From positions 1-41,439 of the forward strand of contig JAEEGS010000030.1 in NCBI GenBank assembly GCA_016280445.1: a stretch of 41,439 nt of DNA. The letters are read 5' to 3'. The notes under the pieces are model-generated. The model had not been told where the DNA came from. It was given only the letters and a program-made list of their open reading frames with translations, and ran no database searches. Shown in pieces: positions 16,065 through 37,620 of this stretch. Made by a program: the position numbers and the translations under genes. Source of the DNA: Bacteroidaceae bacterium. GTDB taxonomy: Bacteria; Bacteroidota; Bacteroidia; Bacteroidales; Bacteroidaceae. Numbering within the stretch: the first letter of the stretch is position 1; each line of letters starts with the position of its first letter.

Positions 16065-17384
16065 TTATCCCCTCTGGTTGTAGTCAGCATTGAGTTGGTT
16101 CATGGCGCTCATGAACTTGTGCAGATATACCAGTGGGAGGACACCAACACAGGAGCCCAGTACGCACCAGAGCCAGTAGTCGGATGCACTGAAAGAGTAT
16201 GGGATGCGACGGCGCTGGAGTTCGTTGCCGATGCGGTTGCTGATGCAATGGAACCAAACAAGGCAAGCAATGCCGCCTGTCAGCCAAGACAGAATCAATG
16301 CAATCAACAGGAAGTTGGATGTCTTACGGCCATCGTACTTGCTGGCCACAATGTTGATTTCCTTGGAAATCTTCGTGAAGATGACAAGGTTGTAGATGCC
16401 AAAGGTGAGGGCACCGAAAAGAATCATCTTGGCGAGGCTACGATTGATAGGCAGTTGTTTCTCTGGCACAAAAGGTGCGGGTTCTTCTGCCTTCACTTCA
16501 ACAGGCTGCACATCTTCGGCTGGTGCTGCCTCTGGAGCCTCGTCAGTTGCTTCCACATAAGCGGGTTCTGGAGCAGGTTCTTCAGCAGGAGCAGGTTCCT
16601 CTGCAACAGGAGCAGGTTCTTCAGCTGGTGCGGGTTCTTCCACAGCAGCGGCAAACTCTTTAACCACTTCTGGAACTTCTACAGTTTCGGGCTGTTCAAC
16701 CTTACCTTCCACGAGGTTTTTCTCTTGTTCATTAGTTGTTTCCATGTTCTCTGATGTTTTAGGGGTTAATAATGATTGTTGCTCATAGGTCTCTATTTTC
16801 TCCTTATTAGACAGCAAGAAGTCTATGTCATCATAAGCATTCATGAGGCAATACTTCTTGTATGAGTTGATGTCGAAGTGCTCAGAATTGCCTGTGGCGA
16901 TGTTGGTCACCGTCTGATTGGGCACATCCACCTTCACCTCTGTTTGTGGGTTGGCAGCAATGCTGTCGAAGAGTTCCTGCTGAAACTTCTTGCTGACGAT
17001 GACTGGAAGCACAAAGCAGTTGAGGAGGTTGTTGCGATGAATATCGGCAAAGGAACTGGAGATGACGACACGAACGCCATAGCCAGCAATCGCCCATGCT
17101 GCATGTTCGCGGCTGGAACCCGAGCCCCAGTTCTGACCGCCTACGATAATCTCATGCACACCCTTGCGAGGTGCTTCTGCATACTCAGGTTGGTTCATCA
17201 CGAAGTCTGCCACTGGTTTCCCTTCAGCATCGAAACGGAGGTCGTGCATGAAGGCATCACCGAAAAACTTGGGGTCACGCGTGGTGCTTGCCAAGTAACG
17301 GGCAGGGATGATGAGGTCGGTATTGCAGTTGTCAATCTGAATAGGAATGCAGGTTGACTGGATGATGTCGAATTTTTCTTTCAT
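16065..17384 (-). CDS. leuD: LeuD (3-isopropylmalate dehydratase small subunit) fused in frame to a DUF4234 membrane protein
   Basis: From ATG 17384 the 439-residue frame contains a complete LeuD (about 1-203; VGGQNWGSGSSREHAAWA at 81-98 is the swivel-domain signature), then a linker (204-213), a Pro/Glu/Ala-rich segment with repeated EEPAPA units (about 225-305) and a DUF4234 domain (about 312-430) with three hydrophobic segments (319-338, 357-380, 403-422). LeuD with LeuC isomerises 2- to 3-isopropylmalate in the cytosol. Met214 (codon at 16743-16745) looks like the start of a once separate DUF4234 protein, and the preceding codons look like intergenic DNA. So a lost stop codon, a sequencing error or a true fusion are all possible. 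A further upstream start (17408) lies inside a palindromic element and is not preferred. Confidence 0.85.
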   Translation of the reverse strand: MKEKFDIIQSTCIPIQIDNCNTDLIIPARYLASTTRDPKFFGDAFMHDLRFDAEGKPVADFVMNQPEYAEAPRKGVHEIIVGGQNWGSGSSREHAAWAIAGYGVRVVISSSFADIHRNNLLNCFVLPVIVSKKFQQELFDSIAANPQTEVKVDVPNQTVTNIATGNSEHFDINSYKKYCLMNAYDDIDFLLSNKEKIETYEQQSLLTPKTSENMETTNEQEKNLVEGKVEQPETVEVPEVVKEFAAAVEEPAPAEEPAPVAEEPAPAEEPAPEPAYVEATDEAPEAAPAEDVQPVEVKAEEPAPFVPEKQLPINRSLAKMILFGALTFGIYNLVIFTKISKEINIVASKYDGRKTSNFLLIALILSWLTGGIACLVWFHCISNRIGNELQRRRIPYSFSASDYWLWCVLGSCVGVLPLVYLHKFMSAMNQLNADYNQRG

Positions 17385-17393
17385 AATAATAAA

Positions 17394-17552
17394 AGACCCT
17401 CTCCCCAACCCTCCCCCGTAATGGGGAGGGAGGCCATCCGGCCAGCTTTTTCGATTGAGGGCTATTAAATGATTATATTATCTTTCCTATTCCCTTACAT
17501 CCCGCATGGTCTCCCCTCCCCATTACGGGGGAGGGGCAGGGGGAGAGGGTCT
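17394..17552. mobile_element. 159-bp palindromic MITE-like element between leuC and leuD
   Basis: The element starts AGACCCTCTCC and ends GGAGAGGGTCT (terminal inverted repeats), each side carrying an inner palindrome CCTCCCC...ATGGGGAGG. It has the same length and organisation as 20977-21135; the right ~85 bp are nearly identical (TTCCTATTCCCTTACATCCC shared). It fills the whole leuC-leuD gap, from 2 bases after the leuC stop to 10 bases before the leuD start. Confidence 0.8.
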
Positions 17553-17554
17553 GC

Positions 17555-19015
17555 TTATTTTCTTGGGTCTGTTACTACTCCTGTGATGGCTGATGCAGCC
17601 ACAACCAGCGGTGAAGCAAGAATGGTGCGGGCACCTGGACCTTGACGACCGACGAAGTTGCGGTTGCTGGTAGAAATGGAGAGTTTTCCTGCTGGCACCT
17701 TGTCGGGATTCATGGCGAGGCACGAAGAACAAGATGGCAGACGGAGTTCAAAGCCTGCTTCTTCCAGAATCTTGTCGATGCCTTCGTCGATGATTTGCTG
17801 ACGAACAAGCCAAGAGCCCGGAACGAGCCAAGCCACCACATTGTCAGCCTTCTTCTTGCCCTTCACCACAGAGGCAAAGGCACGGAAATCTTCTATGCGA
17901 CCATTGGTGCAAGCACCGAGAAAGCAGTAATCCACAGGCACTCCTTCGAGTTTTTGTCCGGGTTCGAACTGCATGTATTCAAGCATGCTGAGGAACTGCG
18001 AACGGTCAGCCTCTGGAATCTCTTCAAGTGTAGGAATCGCCTCATCAATGGCGATACCAGCACCTGGGTTTGTTCCGTAGGTGATGCGTGGAGCAATGTC
18101 CTCGGCACGATAAGTCACCTCCTTGTCGAACACGGCATCCTCGTCCGAGCAGAGTTTCTTCCACTCTTCCACAGCCTTGTCCCAATCAGCACCTTTGGGT
18201 GCATATTCACGTCCTTTCAGATAAGCGAAGGTGGTTTCATCAGGAGCAATCAGACCTGCACGTGAACCCATCTCTATAGAGAGGTTGGAGAGCGTCAGAC
18301 GTCCTTCCATGCTCATGTTGCGAACAGCAGAACCTGCATACTCAACAGCATAGCCAGTAGCACCCGAAGTGGTCATCTGCGCCATGATGTAGAGTGCCAC
18401 ATCCTTAGCGGTCGTGCCCTTGGGGAGTGTACCTTCGATGTTGATGCGCATGGTCTTGGGCTTGCTCTGGAGGATGCACTGTGATGCCAGCACCTGTGCC
18501 ACTTCACTTGTTCCGATACCCATTGCAATAGCACCCACCGCACCATGTGTAGAAGTGTGGGAGTCACCACATACGATGGTCATGCCAGGCAAAGACAGCG
18601 CCTTCTCTGGACCCACCACATGGATGATGCCGTTGTCCTTCGTACCCATCGCAAAGTGCTTGATGCCGAACTCCTCGCAATTGGCTTTCAGCGTCTCCAC
18701 CTGCTTTCTTCCTACGGGGTCGTTGATGACCTCCTGCTGGTCAGAAGGAGTGTTATGGTCAGGCATTGCCACCACATGGTCAGGGCGGAACACCTTGATG
18801 TTCTTATCTCTCAATGTGTCGAACGCCTGCGGACTCGTCACCTCGTGTGCATACAAGCGGTCGATATACAATTGTGTGGGACCGTCCTCCACGTTCTGCA
18901 CGACGTGGGCATCCCATATCTTATCAAAGAGAGTAGACCCTCTCCGCCCTGCGGGCACCTCCCCCATAATGGGGAGGGAACCATCCGGTTTGTTTGTATT
19001 CTCGTATTCTTTCAT
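17555..19015 (-). CDS. leuC: 3-isopropylmalate dehydratase large subunit, with an element-derived N-terminus
   Basis: A 486-residue aconitase-family enzyme. The [4Fe-4S] ligands are present: Cys369 in GACTNGR and Cys429/Cys432 in PSCSSC. Substrate-site motifs DHNTPS (86-91), [19 protein letters not shown] (150-168) and [11 protein letters not shown] (450-460) are typical. It acts with LeuD in leucine synthesis. The family normally begins at about [12 protein letters not shown]; here that follows 27 extra residues, of which 10-27 ([18 protein letters not shown]) are translated from the palindrome of the DUF559-bearing element and 1-9 from its interior. ATG 19015 overlaps the DUF559 stop by 4 bases (ATGA); ATG 18967 inside the palindrome is an alternative. 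The core enzyme appears intact. Confidence 0.96.
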
Positions 19016-19466
19016 AATGATAAATGTTCTTTTATTCTTTTAATTACTTGTTCTGCTGAACAGAAGACTTCTTCATTGGTGAAACGCACAATAGAAAATC
19101 CCATTTGTTCAATTAATACAGTCCTTATTCTATCTTCTTCTATTTGGGTATCTACAAAATGATAGCCCCCATCAACCTCCACAATCAGCTTTTTCTCCAA
19201 ACAAATGAAATCTGCAATATAATCGTAAACAACATATTGCCGTCTGAATTTGACGCCTAAAGCACCACCTTTCAGTAATCGCCAAAGATATCTCTCGGCC
19301 TCGGTCGGATGTTCCCTGTTTTTCCTTGCGAAATCCTTCAATAGCGCATACTTATCTGGACTTGCTGTTCGGAAATACGGAGGTGCCTCATACTGTTCCA
19401 TCACTGTCGAATCACACCCCGCATGGTCTCCCTCCCCATTATGGGGGAGGGCTGGGGAGAGGGTCT
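18935..19466. mobile_element. 532-bp DUF559-bearing element bounded by inverted palindromes
   Basis: The left palindrome (18935-18988, plus orientation) and the right one (19417-19466, inverted) have the same AGACCC/GGGTCT outer ends and orientation as the 159-bp elements, but the spacer here holds the DUF559 gene. The right end stops one base short of the leuA stop codon (19468-19470); the left end lies within leuC's reading frame and supplies its start codon. The left arm has an extra small hairpin GCCCTGCGGGC. Confidence 0.7.
19012..19401 (-). CDS. DUF559 family Vsr-like endonuclease, possible mobiliser of the palindromic elements
   Basis: The 129-residue protein is a complete DUF559 member (PD-(D/E)XK fold related to Vsr). 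It shows [39 protein letters not shown] with Asp64, and [10 protein letters not shown] with Glu75 and Asp77, the expected metal-binding residues, followed by [20 protein letters not shown]. An in-frame GTG one codon upstream is possible; ATG 19401 is chosen. It lies inside the leu operon between leuA and leuC, with no role in leucine synthesis, and is bracketed by inverted palindromes. Its stop overlaps leuC's start, so leuC translation may depend on it. The cellular role of DUF559 proteins is not established; a link to element movement is my inference. Confidence 0.85.
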
Positions 19467-19467
19467 T

Positions 19468-20970
19468 TTAACCTCTGAATTTATTGATACAGTCAATGTA
19501 TGCTTCGACAGAGGCAGTGACGATGTCGGTGTTGGCACCAAAACCATAGTAGAGGTGACCGTTGTTTTCCACCTGCATGTGCACCTTACCCATGTCGTCG
19601 GAGCCCTTCGAGATGGCCTGGATAGTGAACTCCTTGAGCGTCATCTTGCGCTTGATGATGCACTTCAGGGCATTGATGGCAGCATCCACAGGACCATTGC
19701 CCGATGCAGCGGCCTCAAAGTGTTCGTTCGCCACCTGCAAACCCATAGAAGCCACTGAACGGACGCCCTTACCTGTCGTCACTTGCAGATAATCCAGTTT
19801 CACGTTATGGGTGGCACTGCGCTCTGCACCTGCCAACACGAGGATGTCGTCATCCGTCACTTCCTTCTTCTTGTCAGCCAACTTCAAGAATTCCTCATAT
19901 ATCTTGTCGAGTTTCTCGCCTTCCACTTCCACACCATTCACACTCAGGCGATGCTTCAACGCAGCACGACCGCTTCGAGCCGTCAGCACGATGGCGTTGT
20001 CGTCGATTCCCACCTCCTTGGGATCCATGATTTCGTAAGTCGATGCGTTCTTCAGCACACCGTCCTGATGGATACCGCTTGAATGGGCAAACGCGTTCTT
20101 ACCCACAATCGCCTTGTTAGGCTGCACGGGCATATTCATCAGCGAGGACACCATGCGGCTTGTCGGATAAATCTTCGTCGTGTTGATGTTCGTCTCGATG
20201 CCGAGGTCGGGGTGGGTCTTGAAAATCATCGCCACCTCTTCCAGAGAAGTGTTACCGGCACGTTCGCCGATACCGTTGATGGTCACCTCCACCTGACGCG
20301 CACCACCCAGCACACCTGCAACGGTGTTGGCTGTTGCCATGCCGAGGTCATTATGGCAGTGGGTCGAGAGGATGGACTTGCCAGCGGCAAACGCATCCAC
20401 GTGCTCATAGAGGTACTTGATTTTCTCGTGATATTCGTTCGGCACACGGAAGCCCGTCGTGTCTGGGATGTTACAAACGGTTGCACCAGCCTTGGTCACA
20501 GCATCAATCACACGAGCCAGATACTCATTGTCCGTGCGACCGGCATCCTCTGCATAGAACTCCACATCCTCCACGTAACGCTTGGCATACTTCACGGCAG
20601 CCACCGCACGCTCAATGATTTCCTCGGGAGTCGAGTTGAACTTGTACTTGATGTGTGAAGGGCTCGTACCGATACCCGTGTGGATACGCTTGTGCTTGGC
20701 ATACTGCAAAGCCTCCACAGCCACGTCAATGTCCTTCTCCACTGCACGGGTCAACGCACAGATGGTAGGCCACGTCACTGCCTTCGAGATTTCAACCACA
20801 CTGTTGAAATCGCCAGGGCTGGAGATGGGGAATCCAGCCTCGATGACATCCACACCCAACGCCTCCAACTGCTTAGCCACCTGAATCTTCTCAACCGTGT
20901 TGAGCTGACATCCAGGCACCTGCTCGCCATCGCGGAGCGTCGTGTCAAAAATAAATAATCTATCTGCCAT
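19468..20970 (-). CDS. leuA: 2-isopropylmalate synthase
   Basis: A 500-residue enzyme condensing acetyl-CoA with 2-ketoisovalerate, the committed step of leucine synthesis. The TIM barrel carries [14 protein letters not shown] (9-22), the metal ligands HCHND (204-208) and [14 protein letters not shown] from 232; the C-terminal allosteric domain (about 370-495, [17 protein letters not shown] at its start) binds leucine in relatives. The frame stays open to 21021, but the extra 17 residues come from a palindromic element, so ATG 20970 is chosen. It is the first structural gene behind the leader peptide and attenuator. Confidence 0.97.
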
Positions 20971-20976
20971 AATTAA

Positions 20977-21135
20977 AGACCCCCACTGTCCTTCATCTCC
21001 CCCCTCCATGGGGAGAGCCATCCGGATAGTTTCTTAAGGAGGCATTTTTTTATTATTATATTATATTTCCTATTCCCTTACATCCCGCATGGTCTCCCCT
21101 CCCCATTACGGGGGAGGGGCAGGGGGAGAGGGTCT
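20977..21135. mobile_element. 159-bp palindromic MITE-like element between attenuator and leuA
   Basis: Same length, ends and spacer organisation as 17394-17552; its left palindrome is more degenerate (CTCCCCCCTCCATGGGGAG). It begins 7 bases upstream of leuA and ends 7 bases from the attenuator's T tract, so it lies in the untranslated leader of leuA. Confidence 0.8.
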
Positions 21136-36357: not shown

Positions 36358-37620
36358 TTATCTGCGAATGGCGAGTGGTATAGCCTCTTCGTGTTGCTGG
36401 CAGAAAGTGGGAGCATCGCTGACAACGAGGGCGAGATAGCCGCCACCGCCTGCTCCTGGCATCTTCCACGCCAGCACATCGGGCAGCGGGGCATATTGGT
36501 TTATATAGTCCTGCACCCCTGGCTGCATCATGGCCGGGAAAAGCGTGATTTGTGCATTGAACGAGGCTTGGTAGGCTGCCGCAAAAGCGTTGAGGTCTGT
36601 CTGCAGAATGGCTTTCCAACAGTTGTCGGCCGCTGTAGCCAAGGCCTTCACGTTGGCTTCGTTGATGTCTTTTCCTTCTACCACCGAACAGCCTGGACGA
36701 CGCGGGAACATCGGTATCATGCACAGATGCTGTTCCAGCCAGCAGAGGACGGACTCGTCAGTACACGACTCGATGCGCTCTGGCCAATAGTGAGCGTTGT
36801 AGTAGTGGCGGCAGAGTCCTGGCATACAGATGCCGATAGCATCCTGTGCGCCGCTGATGATGCCGTCGGTGCGTTCAGGGTCGTTCTCAAAGCAGAACAC
36901 CAGCTTGGCCAACATCTCAGGATCCATGTCGGGCAGACGAACTGGCCAGATGCGCTTGATTTGGTTACGTGTAGAAGTGGACAGTCCACAGCGTTCACGA
37001 ATCTCGAAGGTGGGCAAGAGCGAGATGGTAATGGCCCATCCCGGTGCATAAGTGCTCACGTAAGGCTGGTCAATCCATGTGCCAGCGAGGTCAAGACGGG
37101 TGGGAATGCCCTCGGAGACCCTCTCTGTCCTACGGACATCTCCCCCATGATGGGGAGAGCCTTCCGGATGGTCTCCCTCCCCATTACGGGGGAGAGTTGG
37201 GGAAAGGGTCTGGAGGCTTGCCTTGATGCTCGTGCTGCTGCGCGCCTCCAATCCTTCGGCTGGAATGCGGTCGAGCACGATGTATTCGATACCGCGCTCT
37301 TCGCAGAACTTACGTTTCTCCTCGCTCGACCCGTCGGCATTCACCACGAATCGGTCGGGCTTCAAGGCCTCCACCGTGGGGATGAAGTCCATCACGCCAG
37401 AGCCTTGGTTGATGAAGGCATCCTTCACATAGCGGATGCTCTTCACCATGAAGAGGCGTTCCTGCTCCGGATAGAGCGTCTTGTGGTTCTTATAGGTAAG
37501 GATGGTCGCATCCGACCCGATGCCCACGTAGAGGTCGCCATATTGGCTGGCCTGTCGGAAGAACTCGACATGACCGCTGTGGAGAAGGTCGTAACAACCG
37601 CTGACAAATACTTTCATCAT
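36358..37620 (-). CDS. Bifunctional nucleotidyltransferase / GHMP-type sugar kinase with an in-frame palindromic insertion
   Basis: The 420-residue protein joins a cytidylyltransferase-like domain (2-135; HxGH at LLHSGHVEFF, the SSTSIKA motif at 128-134) to a GHMP-kinase-like domain (171-420; IPTRLDLAGTWIDQP, a GLSTS element near 212, SGAQDAIG, and the C-terminal GAGGGGYLALV loop). Residues 137-169 between the domains are translated from a 96-bp palindromic element. The predicted activities are sugar phosphorylation and nucleotide activation or a derived regulatory role; the sugar may be fucose by context. It is unrelated in layout to Bacteroides Fkp. It lies 40 bases after the dehydrogenase gene. 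Function is uncertain. Confidence 0.75.
   Translation of the reverse strand: MMKVFVSGCYDLLHSGHVEFFRQASQYGDLYVGIGSDATILTYKNHKTLYPEQERLFMVKSIRYVKDAFINQGSGVMDFIPTVEALKPDRFVVNADGSSEEKRKFCEERGIEYIVLDRIPAEGLEARSSTSIKASLQTLSPTLPRNGEGDHPEGSPHHGGDVRRTERVSEGIPTRLDLAGTWIDQPYVSTYAPGWAITISLLPTFEIRERCGLSTSTRNQIKRIWPVRLPDMDPEMLAKLVFCFENDPERTDGIISGAQDAIGICMPGLCRHYYNAHYWPERIESCTDESVLCWLEQHLCMIPMFPRRPGCSVVEGKDINEANVKALATAADNCWKAILQTDLNAFAAAYQASFNAQITLFPAMMQPGVQDYINQYAPLPDVLAWKMPGAGGGGYLALVVSDAPTFCQQHEEAIPLAIRR
37116..37211. mobile_element. 96-bp palindromic element inserted in frame in the kinase gene
   Basis: Left palindrome 37116-37167 and right inverted palindrome 37168-37211 abut without spacer; the ends are AGACCC and GGGTCT as in the leu-operon elements. 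The length is 32 codons exactly and it has no stop in the kinase frame. Its small hairpin GTCCTACGGAC corresponds to GCCCTGCGGGC at 18950-18960 with a compensating base-pair change. Confidence 0.8.

Follow-up and report, generated by a model that had tools for sequence, protein, structure and literature searches.

The described systems closest to the one reported here are the REP/RAYT REPtrons, the coding palindromes of the Rickettsia type and the homing endonucleases, among which I-Bth0305I is a Vsr-like enzyme of the EDxHD class. In REPtrons, small repetitive extragenic palindromes (REPs) occur as singlets and as inverted doublets, and the gene for the enzyme, a REP-associated tyrosine transposase (RAYT), lies between inverted copies, an anatomy that our element resembles; intragenic REP copies are known, many of them in replication and repair genes, according to the accessible part of one account (PMC3733652). 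Rickettsia palindromic elements and coding miniature inverted-repeat transposable elements (MITEs; ERIC, Correia and YPAL) of ~100-200 bp lie in frame inside conserved proteins, as the available part of another report describes (PMC2229807). For DUF559 itself, the accessible text of a Caulobacter study states that the SOS response of cells lacking the cytosine methylase ScmA depends on the DUF559 protein VsrA (CCNA_02930; PMC12907096). Titles and abstract openings in the open-access literature yielded no tie between DUF559 and palindromes, a scope that leaves many subscription papers and bioRxiv preprints outside and in which absence is not proof. Here we analyze a window of 41,439 nucleotides (the whole stretch of DNA considered, positions 1 to 41,439 of contig JAEEGS010000030.1, assembly GCA_016280445.1, from a Bacteroidaceae bacterium), whose leu operon carries a DUF559 gene bounded by C-rich palindromes, and we think it probable that gene and palindromes together form one selfish mobile endonuclease element with MITE-like derivatives. 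That the nuclease gene and the palindromes are a mobile unit is well supported by the sequence comparisons set out below, and the putative nuclease likely drives the movement and may bind or cut the palindrome, as suggested by its association and co-variation with the palindromes, its conserved putative active-site residues and its low ratio of nonsynonymous to synonymous substitution rates (dN/dS). DUF559 is labelled a "protein of unknown function" in Pfam, and the pairing of nuclease and palindrome gives both a testable function.

In gene order on the minus strand, the operon reads 159-bp element, leuA, DUF559 element, leuC, 159-bp element, leuD. When the stretch was re-checked, the AGACCC and GGGTCT ends and the coordinates of all three elements proved exact to the base, just as the initial annotation had placed its two elements of 159 bp and one of 532 bp. 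Its other descriptive statements held as well: a C-rich hairpin was found near each end of all three elements, where it had seen inner palindromes; the two 159-bp elements, for which it had claimed a homologous spacer, are 97% identical over 90 bases in their right parts; and the gene that it had assigned to DUF559 in the 532-bp copy encodes a protein above the PF04480 cut-off (1.9e-30, 105.4 bits against 20.6). With the first 159-bp element as query, BLAST gave 59 alignments in the 3.07-Mb genome of the window (G000), above what chance would give, many of them the two ends or strands of one element. The features of the window are as follows.

18935..19466, minus strand: complete DUF559 element, 532 bp, with ends AGACCC/GGGTCT, at the leuA-leuC junction (sequence and comparison with 30 genus loci)
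19012..19404, minus strand: predicted DUF559 PD-(D/E)XK endonuclease gene, 130 aa, with E37, D65, E76, D78, H82 and D91 (Pfam, PDB 3HRL match, alignment)
19419..19466, minus strand: upstream (leuA-side) end of the DUF559 element, with a hairpin at 19431-19450 (end comparison)
18935..19009, minus strand: downstream (leuC-side) end of the DUF559 element, with a hairpin at 18958-18977 and the small hairpin GCCCGCAGGGC
17394..17552, minus strand: gene-less doublet element, 159 bp, at the leuC-leuD junction, 9 bases from the leuD ATG (17384), with hairpins at 17410-17429 and 17515-17534
20977..21135, minus strand: gene-less doublet element, 159 bp, 6 bases from the leuA ATG (20970), with hairpins at 20996-21016 and 21098-21117
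37116..37211, minus strand: fourth element, a 96-bp doublet in frame within a 420-aa open reading frame (ORF) at 36358-37620 on the minus strand (BLAST, ORF map, end comparison)
17555..19015, minus strand: leuC, whose start codon and first residues now come from the element
19468..20970, minus strand: leuA, whose stop codon is one base away from the element end (Pfam)
16065..17384, minus strand: leuD, with a C-terminal DUF4234 domain (Pfam); the ORF (16065-17408) runs on into a P/A/E-rich linker and then this domain

The TGA stop of the DUF559 gene overlaps the new leuC ATG (ATGA), and the downstream end of the element translates in frame as the new N-terminus of LeuC, an extension of 27 residues ahead of TLFDKIW. 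The DUF559 protein is a sequence relative of the endonuclease-like protein of PDB entry 3HRL (2.6e-18), which is a structure only and brought no function to the match, and its putative PD-(D/E)XK fold rests on Pfam and on this relative. Nine positions are invariant in all 91 aligned DUF559 sequences; the putative active-site residues E37, D65, E76, H82 and D91 are likewise invariant in 91/91 and D78 in 89/91, with an order of acidic and histidine residues that we take to be similar to that of EDxHD homing endonucleases. In 12 of 18 DUF559 pairs dS could be computed, and these have a dN/dS of 0.03-0.25 (two of the 12 dS values exceed 2, near saturation). This supports a core under purifying selection, even where the domain is part of a host protein, and argues against DUF559 as inert cargo. 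Of the 296 phylum genomes sampled, 170 have a member of the family, which is also present, patchily, in 25 of the 45 genus genomes.

The association of DUF559 with palindromes was measured by comparing the 250 bp to the left and right of each of 165 DUF559 domains with 2475 random placements in the same loci, whose inverted-repeat scores had a 99th percentile of 28 and a maximum of 54. The loci comprise a genus set (31 of the 42 matches listed), 44 loci of the genome_contigs set and a phylum sample (the best-scoring 90 loci among the matches listed); one of the 12 seeds (L040) of the home-made DUF559 hidden Markov model was out of frame, but the domain was still located in every locus. Flanking inverted repeats exceeded the 99th control percentile at 106 of the 165 loci (22/31 in the genus, 24/44 in genome_contigs and 60/90 in the phylum sample) and the control maximum at 17/31, 8/44 and 20/90, respectively. 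The DUF559 locus of Prevotella lacticifex (L042) has ends that match perfectly over 31 bp. The threshold was also passed by 13 of 18 loci labelled as other than Bacteroidota and, among the five plasmid-borne examples examined, by those of Sphingomonas, Picosynechococcus and Deinococcus; Synechocystis lies just under it (27), and Azospirillum, with palindromes on one side only, scores 19. Two organism labels of metagenome-assembled genomes look doubtful by eye, that of L069 (Rickettsia typhi) and that of L044 (Limnohabitans, with a Bacteroidota-like RecG). Plasmids as the main vehicle were considered and rejected, only 38 of 72,556 plasmid records having a DUF559 match.

The ends themselves are specific. 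C-rich hairpins stand on both sides of DUF559 at 18/31 genus, 24/44 genome_contigs and 62/90 phylum-sample loci, and in three comparison families, from which short loci had been lost before the count (5 of 30 for GIY-YIG, 8 of 20 for Y1 transposases, none of 30 for S23), at 1/25, 0/12 and 0/30; repeats of other types score above 28 in these families at 13/25, 5/12 and 16/30 loci. Because two-sided hairpins are common at DUF559 loci and nearly absent from the comparison families, C-rich ends go with DUF559. The initial annotation had named an association at chance level as an outcome that would count against it, and what we found lies far above the in-locus controls and above the three families. 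At the level of whole genomes, at least five palindrome hits occur in 14 of 22 genus genomes with DUF559 and in 5 of 23 without a counted DUF559 (Mann-Whitney p=0.0005), in a count that left out four long multi-domain DUF559 hits; one tally of palindromes was capped at 20 scored candidates per genome.

These figures also bear on the idea that REP-like palindromes are moved in trans by RAYT or another transposase and that DUF559 is cargo, which we regard as quite unlikely. The REPtron-like anatomy (singlets, inverted doublets, a gene between inverted copies) speaks for it, as do the inverted flanks of Y1 transposase genes in the same genus, but the latter flanks carry other sequences and none has C-rich hairpins on both sides. 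In a mover test that covered Y1/RAYT transposases among transposase families, the window genome had no Y1 match over the cut-off (best 3.7e-4), and the genus genomes with a RAYT-like Y1 gene (8/45, E<1e-10) were not richer in palindromes (p=0.72), one of the 11 richest having such a gene. The element differs from REPtrons in that its enzyme is predicted to be a PD-(D/E)XK nuclease and not a Y1 (HUH) transposase and that its gene-bearing form can itself be an in-frame domain of a host protein. No constant GTAG tag was noticed in the ends inspected by eye, this motif being readable at 18933-18936 (with GT before 18935) and not at 17394, 20977 or most printed ends. G-quadruplex ends were dropped as an idea after a look at the flanks by eye because many ends lack four G-runs.

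Both 159-bp copies agree with the left end of the leu DUF559 element at 50/53 bases and with its right end at 43/47 and 32/38 bases. Eight doublets dispersed elsewhere in the genome resemble the two ends to a similar degree, inner segments included, and so does the fourth element of the window. As in MITEs, terminal inverted repeats are held in common with the gene-bearing element, and the proposal that an autonomous element stands beside MITE-like deletion derivatives, made at first from the window, is borne out by these matches to both ends. Across loci, palindrome similarity follows protein similarity in the genus (Mantel rho 0.43, p=0.001, n=22; for pairs below 60% identity rho 0.27, p=0.004) and in the phylum (rho 0.16, p=0.001, n=60). 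Another possibility is that the palindromes spread independently, by template switching for example, and serve DUF559 genes as homing sites, so that gene and palindromes are not one unit. The window genome, where 59 alignments stand against 2 DUF559 genes, would suit this, and so would the palindromes in genomes without a detected DUF559; we nevertheless judge it unlikely, as an element's two ends resemble each other and vary together with the protein, gene-less doublets contain inner segments from either end of the gene-bearing form, and the identity between G000 and G011 (see below) stops at the element ends and not at the gene. The second DUF559 match of the window genome (L010, G000:C47) is partial and lies near a contig end, beside argC.

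Filled and empty states occur at five positions (leuA-leuC, leuC-leuD, argC start, argC loop and mnmA), all of them between species of the genus, and the lack of strain polymorphism that the initial annotation had given as its other unfavorable outcome is, at this between-species level, not what the loci show. At the leuA-leuC junction, 5 of 30 genus loci have the DUF559 element (537-554 bp), 23 have 20-33 bp and 2 have 98-111 bp; at leuC-leuD, 4 have 169-170 bp and 26 have 1-10 bp. The filled leuA-leuC loci have lost the original leuC start (ATGGGAAAG in most empty genomes). The start of argC is replaced by an element end in G007, G030, G031, G026 and G000, and the argC loop has one doublet type in 2 of 30 loci, another in 2, short palindromic forms in 3 and none in 23. 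At mnmA, where element sequence stands at the gene start, 3 of 28 readable loci (of 30) are filled, and short G-rich residues resembling an element end in G041 and G006 may be remnants. No target-site duplication was noticed by eye at the leuC, argC and mnmA junctions, where host bases seem replaced instead, and the elements appear from these alignments to replace short host segments, start codons included. In a leuC gene tree, the five filled genomes do not form one clade, with weak support, and the tree was not used for counting insertions. On a plasmid of Synechocystis sp. B12 (L363), a 500-bp DUF559 element splits a DUF1156 gene and occupies the place of an 88-121-bp segment present in three uninterrupted homologues.

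This distribution leaves little room for the view that selection keeps the elements for a regulatory or structural role in the host, as hairpins where operon genes start. Three copies do lie ≤10 bases from starts or stops of leu genes, but the elements are missing at the same junctions in 25/30 (leuA-leuC) and 26/30 (leuC-leuD) related loci and many copies in the window genome are inside long ORFs, and we give the view hardly any credence. The in-frame inserts of these elements in conserved proteins, such as the argC loop with its empty relatives, are like the coding palindromes of the Rickettsia type; unlike these, the DUF559 derivatives have a nuclease-bearing relative and keep both of its ends.

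Identity confined to the element points to transfer between species. G000 and G011 share a leu DUF559 element with 99.4% identity over 538 bp, compared with 89.6% for their leuA and 91.4% for their leuC; the shift is abrupt at the element ends, and a second element is identical over 170 bp. The pair L025/L027 at argC has the same contrast, L019/L037 and L030/L031 have it more weakly, and at carB one side was co-transferred. Moreover, genus DUF559 proteins that are at least 74% identical always have a common locus and those at different loci are at most 67% identical, a locus-tied pattern more in keeping with homing than with frequent transposition when it comes to the gene-bearing form, while the gene-less copies disperse. 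In its small nuclease, locus-tied lineages, conserved target genes and spread to one site in related species, the element is like homing endonucleases: the same site is filled in some relatives and empty in others, with element-limited identity in a minority of the pairs compared. It is unlike them in that the insert has no seen intron or intein and stays in the ORF or supplies a new start, that its ends are palindromes also occurring alone, and that a target segment seems to be replaced.

DUF559 domains can be parts of other proteins. A DUF559 domain is embedded in a longer ORF, with at least 120 residues on both sides, at 26/90 phylum-sample and 0/31 genus loci, and every one of the 20 long-ORF proteins scanned, out of 62, carries a host domain in addition to DUF559; no intein (Hint) domain appeared in their Pfam listings. 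By their domains the hosts are RecG, LeuRS (two sites), methionine synthase, an Lhr-type helicase, HisF, RecJ, IspF, an epimerase, methylmalonyl-CoA mutase, a class I tRNA synthetase, UvrD-type helicases, Ham1, an AMP-binding enzyme, HsdR, HsdM and a type ISP enzyme. The LeuRS of Muricauda (L052) is one example of a protein with an in-frame insert. Seven RecG proteins of Tenacibaculum (L058, L059, L061, L062, L063, L065 and L067) have a DUF559 insert, apparently at the site of L043/L045, with no recognisable palindromes and perhaps decayed ends. Gene-less palindromes behave similarly: of the 40 hairpin cores in 20 regions of the window genome chosen from the BLAST list, 32 fall within ORFs that are 180 aa or longer and leave at least 40 residues on each side, a count that is uncontrolled in bacterial DNA that is mostly coding and whose point is that the frames stay open. 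A host domain over the cut-off was found in 9/10 of the palindrome-bearing ORFs scanned, one weak (TPR); other hosts resemble Mfd, MutS2, LeuRS and a Methyltransf_4 enzyme. The elements go beyond the initial account, whose autonomous and derivative forms stand but which did not reach to the many in-frame copies within ORFs or to an insertion that seems to replace short host segments.

Such a pattern is hard to reconcile with DUF559 as a host very-short-patch repair or defense enzyme whose palindromes are terminators or coincidence. In the accessible part of their report, the authors of the Caulobacter work read VsrA as acting in mismatch repair and propose it as a T:G mismatch endonuclease linked to ScmA (PMC12907096), a reading that differs from ours; given the patchy presence, the in-frame insertion into unrelated proteins, the element-limited identity and the family-specific ends, we consider this explanation very improbable.

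Several observations weigh against a single selfish element. The repeat threshold is not reached at 59/165 DUF559 loci, including the seven Tenacibaculum RecG insertions and three long multi-domain proteins, and the co-variation of protein and palindrome could also come from co-inheritance alone. Five of the 23 genus genomes without a counted DUF559 have at least five palindrome hits, with 23 in G021 (65% complete); a second end type likewise occurs outside genomes with a matching DUF559 (G003), and a test for solo copies cognate to the DUF559 present was mixed. The loss of target bases, seen between species, may be later decay, and the in-ORF count is uncontrolled. Most same-locus pairs, including all other leuC pairs, have elements that diverged as much as their flanks or more, and since the lineages are locus-tied, moves of the gene-bearing form to new sites must be rare or old. 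Finally, stand-alone DUF559 genes are co-directional with both neighbors in 23/27 genus cases and in only 22/57 of the phylum sample (neighbor strands being rough, taken from the longest ORF), so co-direction is not general.

Nevertheless, the unit structure, the derivation of the gene-less copies, the polymorphism between species, the element-limited identity between two species and the purifying selection are supported by the data, and for the one selfish element that we favor, we put forward the following mechanism. The master copy would encode a small Vsr-like PD-(D/E)XK endonuclease, which the host gene presumably expresses because the element sits in host operons or in frame in host proteins. 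The nuclease would cut its own palindrome and/or the empty target and repair would copy the element in, chiefly at the equivalent site in related species in a homing-like manner and more rarely elsewhere, with short target stretches lost during the repair. Since the right end has a start codon and an open frame, a gene whose 5' end the element replaces can stay functional; such replacement by the right end is seen at leuC, and at argC and mnmA the start is likewise occupied by element sequence. Internal deletion would give rise to the gene-less doublets and the shorter palindromes, which are dispersed through the genome and in many cases lie inside ORFs, as seen in the sequence. If this is true, inserts such as SPLPLGEDLGEGK in restriction enzymes, tRNA synthetases, helicases and metabolic enzymes are marks of selfish elements and so are the replaced gene starts, and gene annotation is affected.

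We further suggest, tentatively and with rather less assurance than for the element itself, that DUF559 nucleases could define a new class of selfish element in several phyla, in which a nuclease gene with C-rich palindromes at its borders would enter host genes by break repair, either in frame or across start codons, and use housekeeping proteins as carriers. This class could be one of several parallel pairings of nuclease and palindrome, another of which may be GIY-YIG with GAGCGCAGTCGA-type repeats; between them, such pairings could provide the enzymes that orphan bacterial palindromes lack. CGTC palindromes apparently have no dedicated transposase, according to the accessible part of the report that describes them (PMC3733652). 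GIY-YIG may be a candidate enzyme for these palindromes, the two being linked here by description. The GIY-YIG genes of the phylum sample (L224-L253) often have inverted repeats of another class, CTGAGC..GTCGAAG / GAGCGCAGTCGAGA, with the motif GAGC[GT]NNGTCGA on both sides at 5/25 loci. In one type I restriction HsdR protein (L106), a GIY-YIG domain (251-317) is accompanied by a DUF559 domain (443-547), both of them in frame. The S23/IVP four-helix genes (L254-L283), 16/30 of which pass the repeat threshold with C-rich hairpins in 0/30, have AT-rich word repeats, AAGTACCAAGTA and TTAGCTATTAGC, in their flanks.

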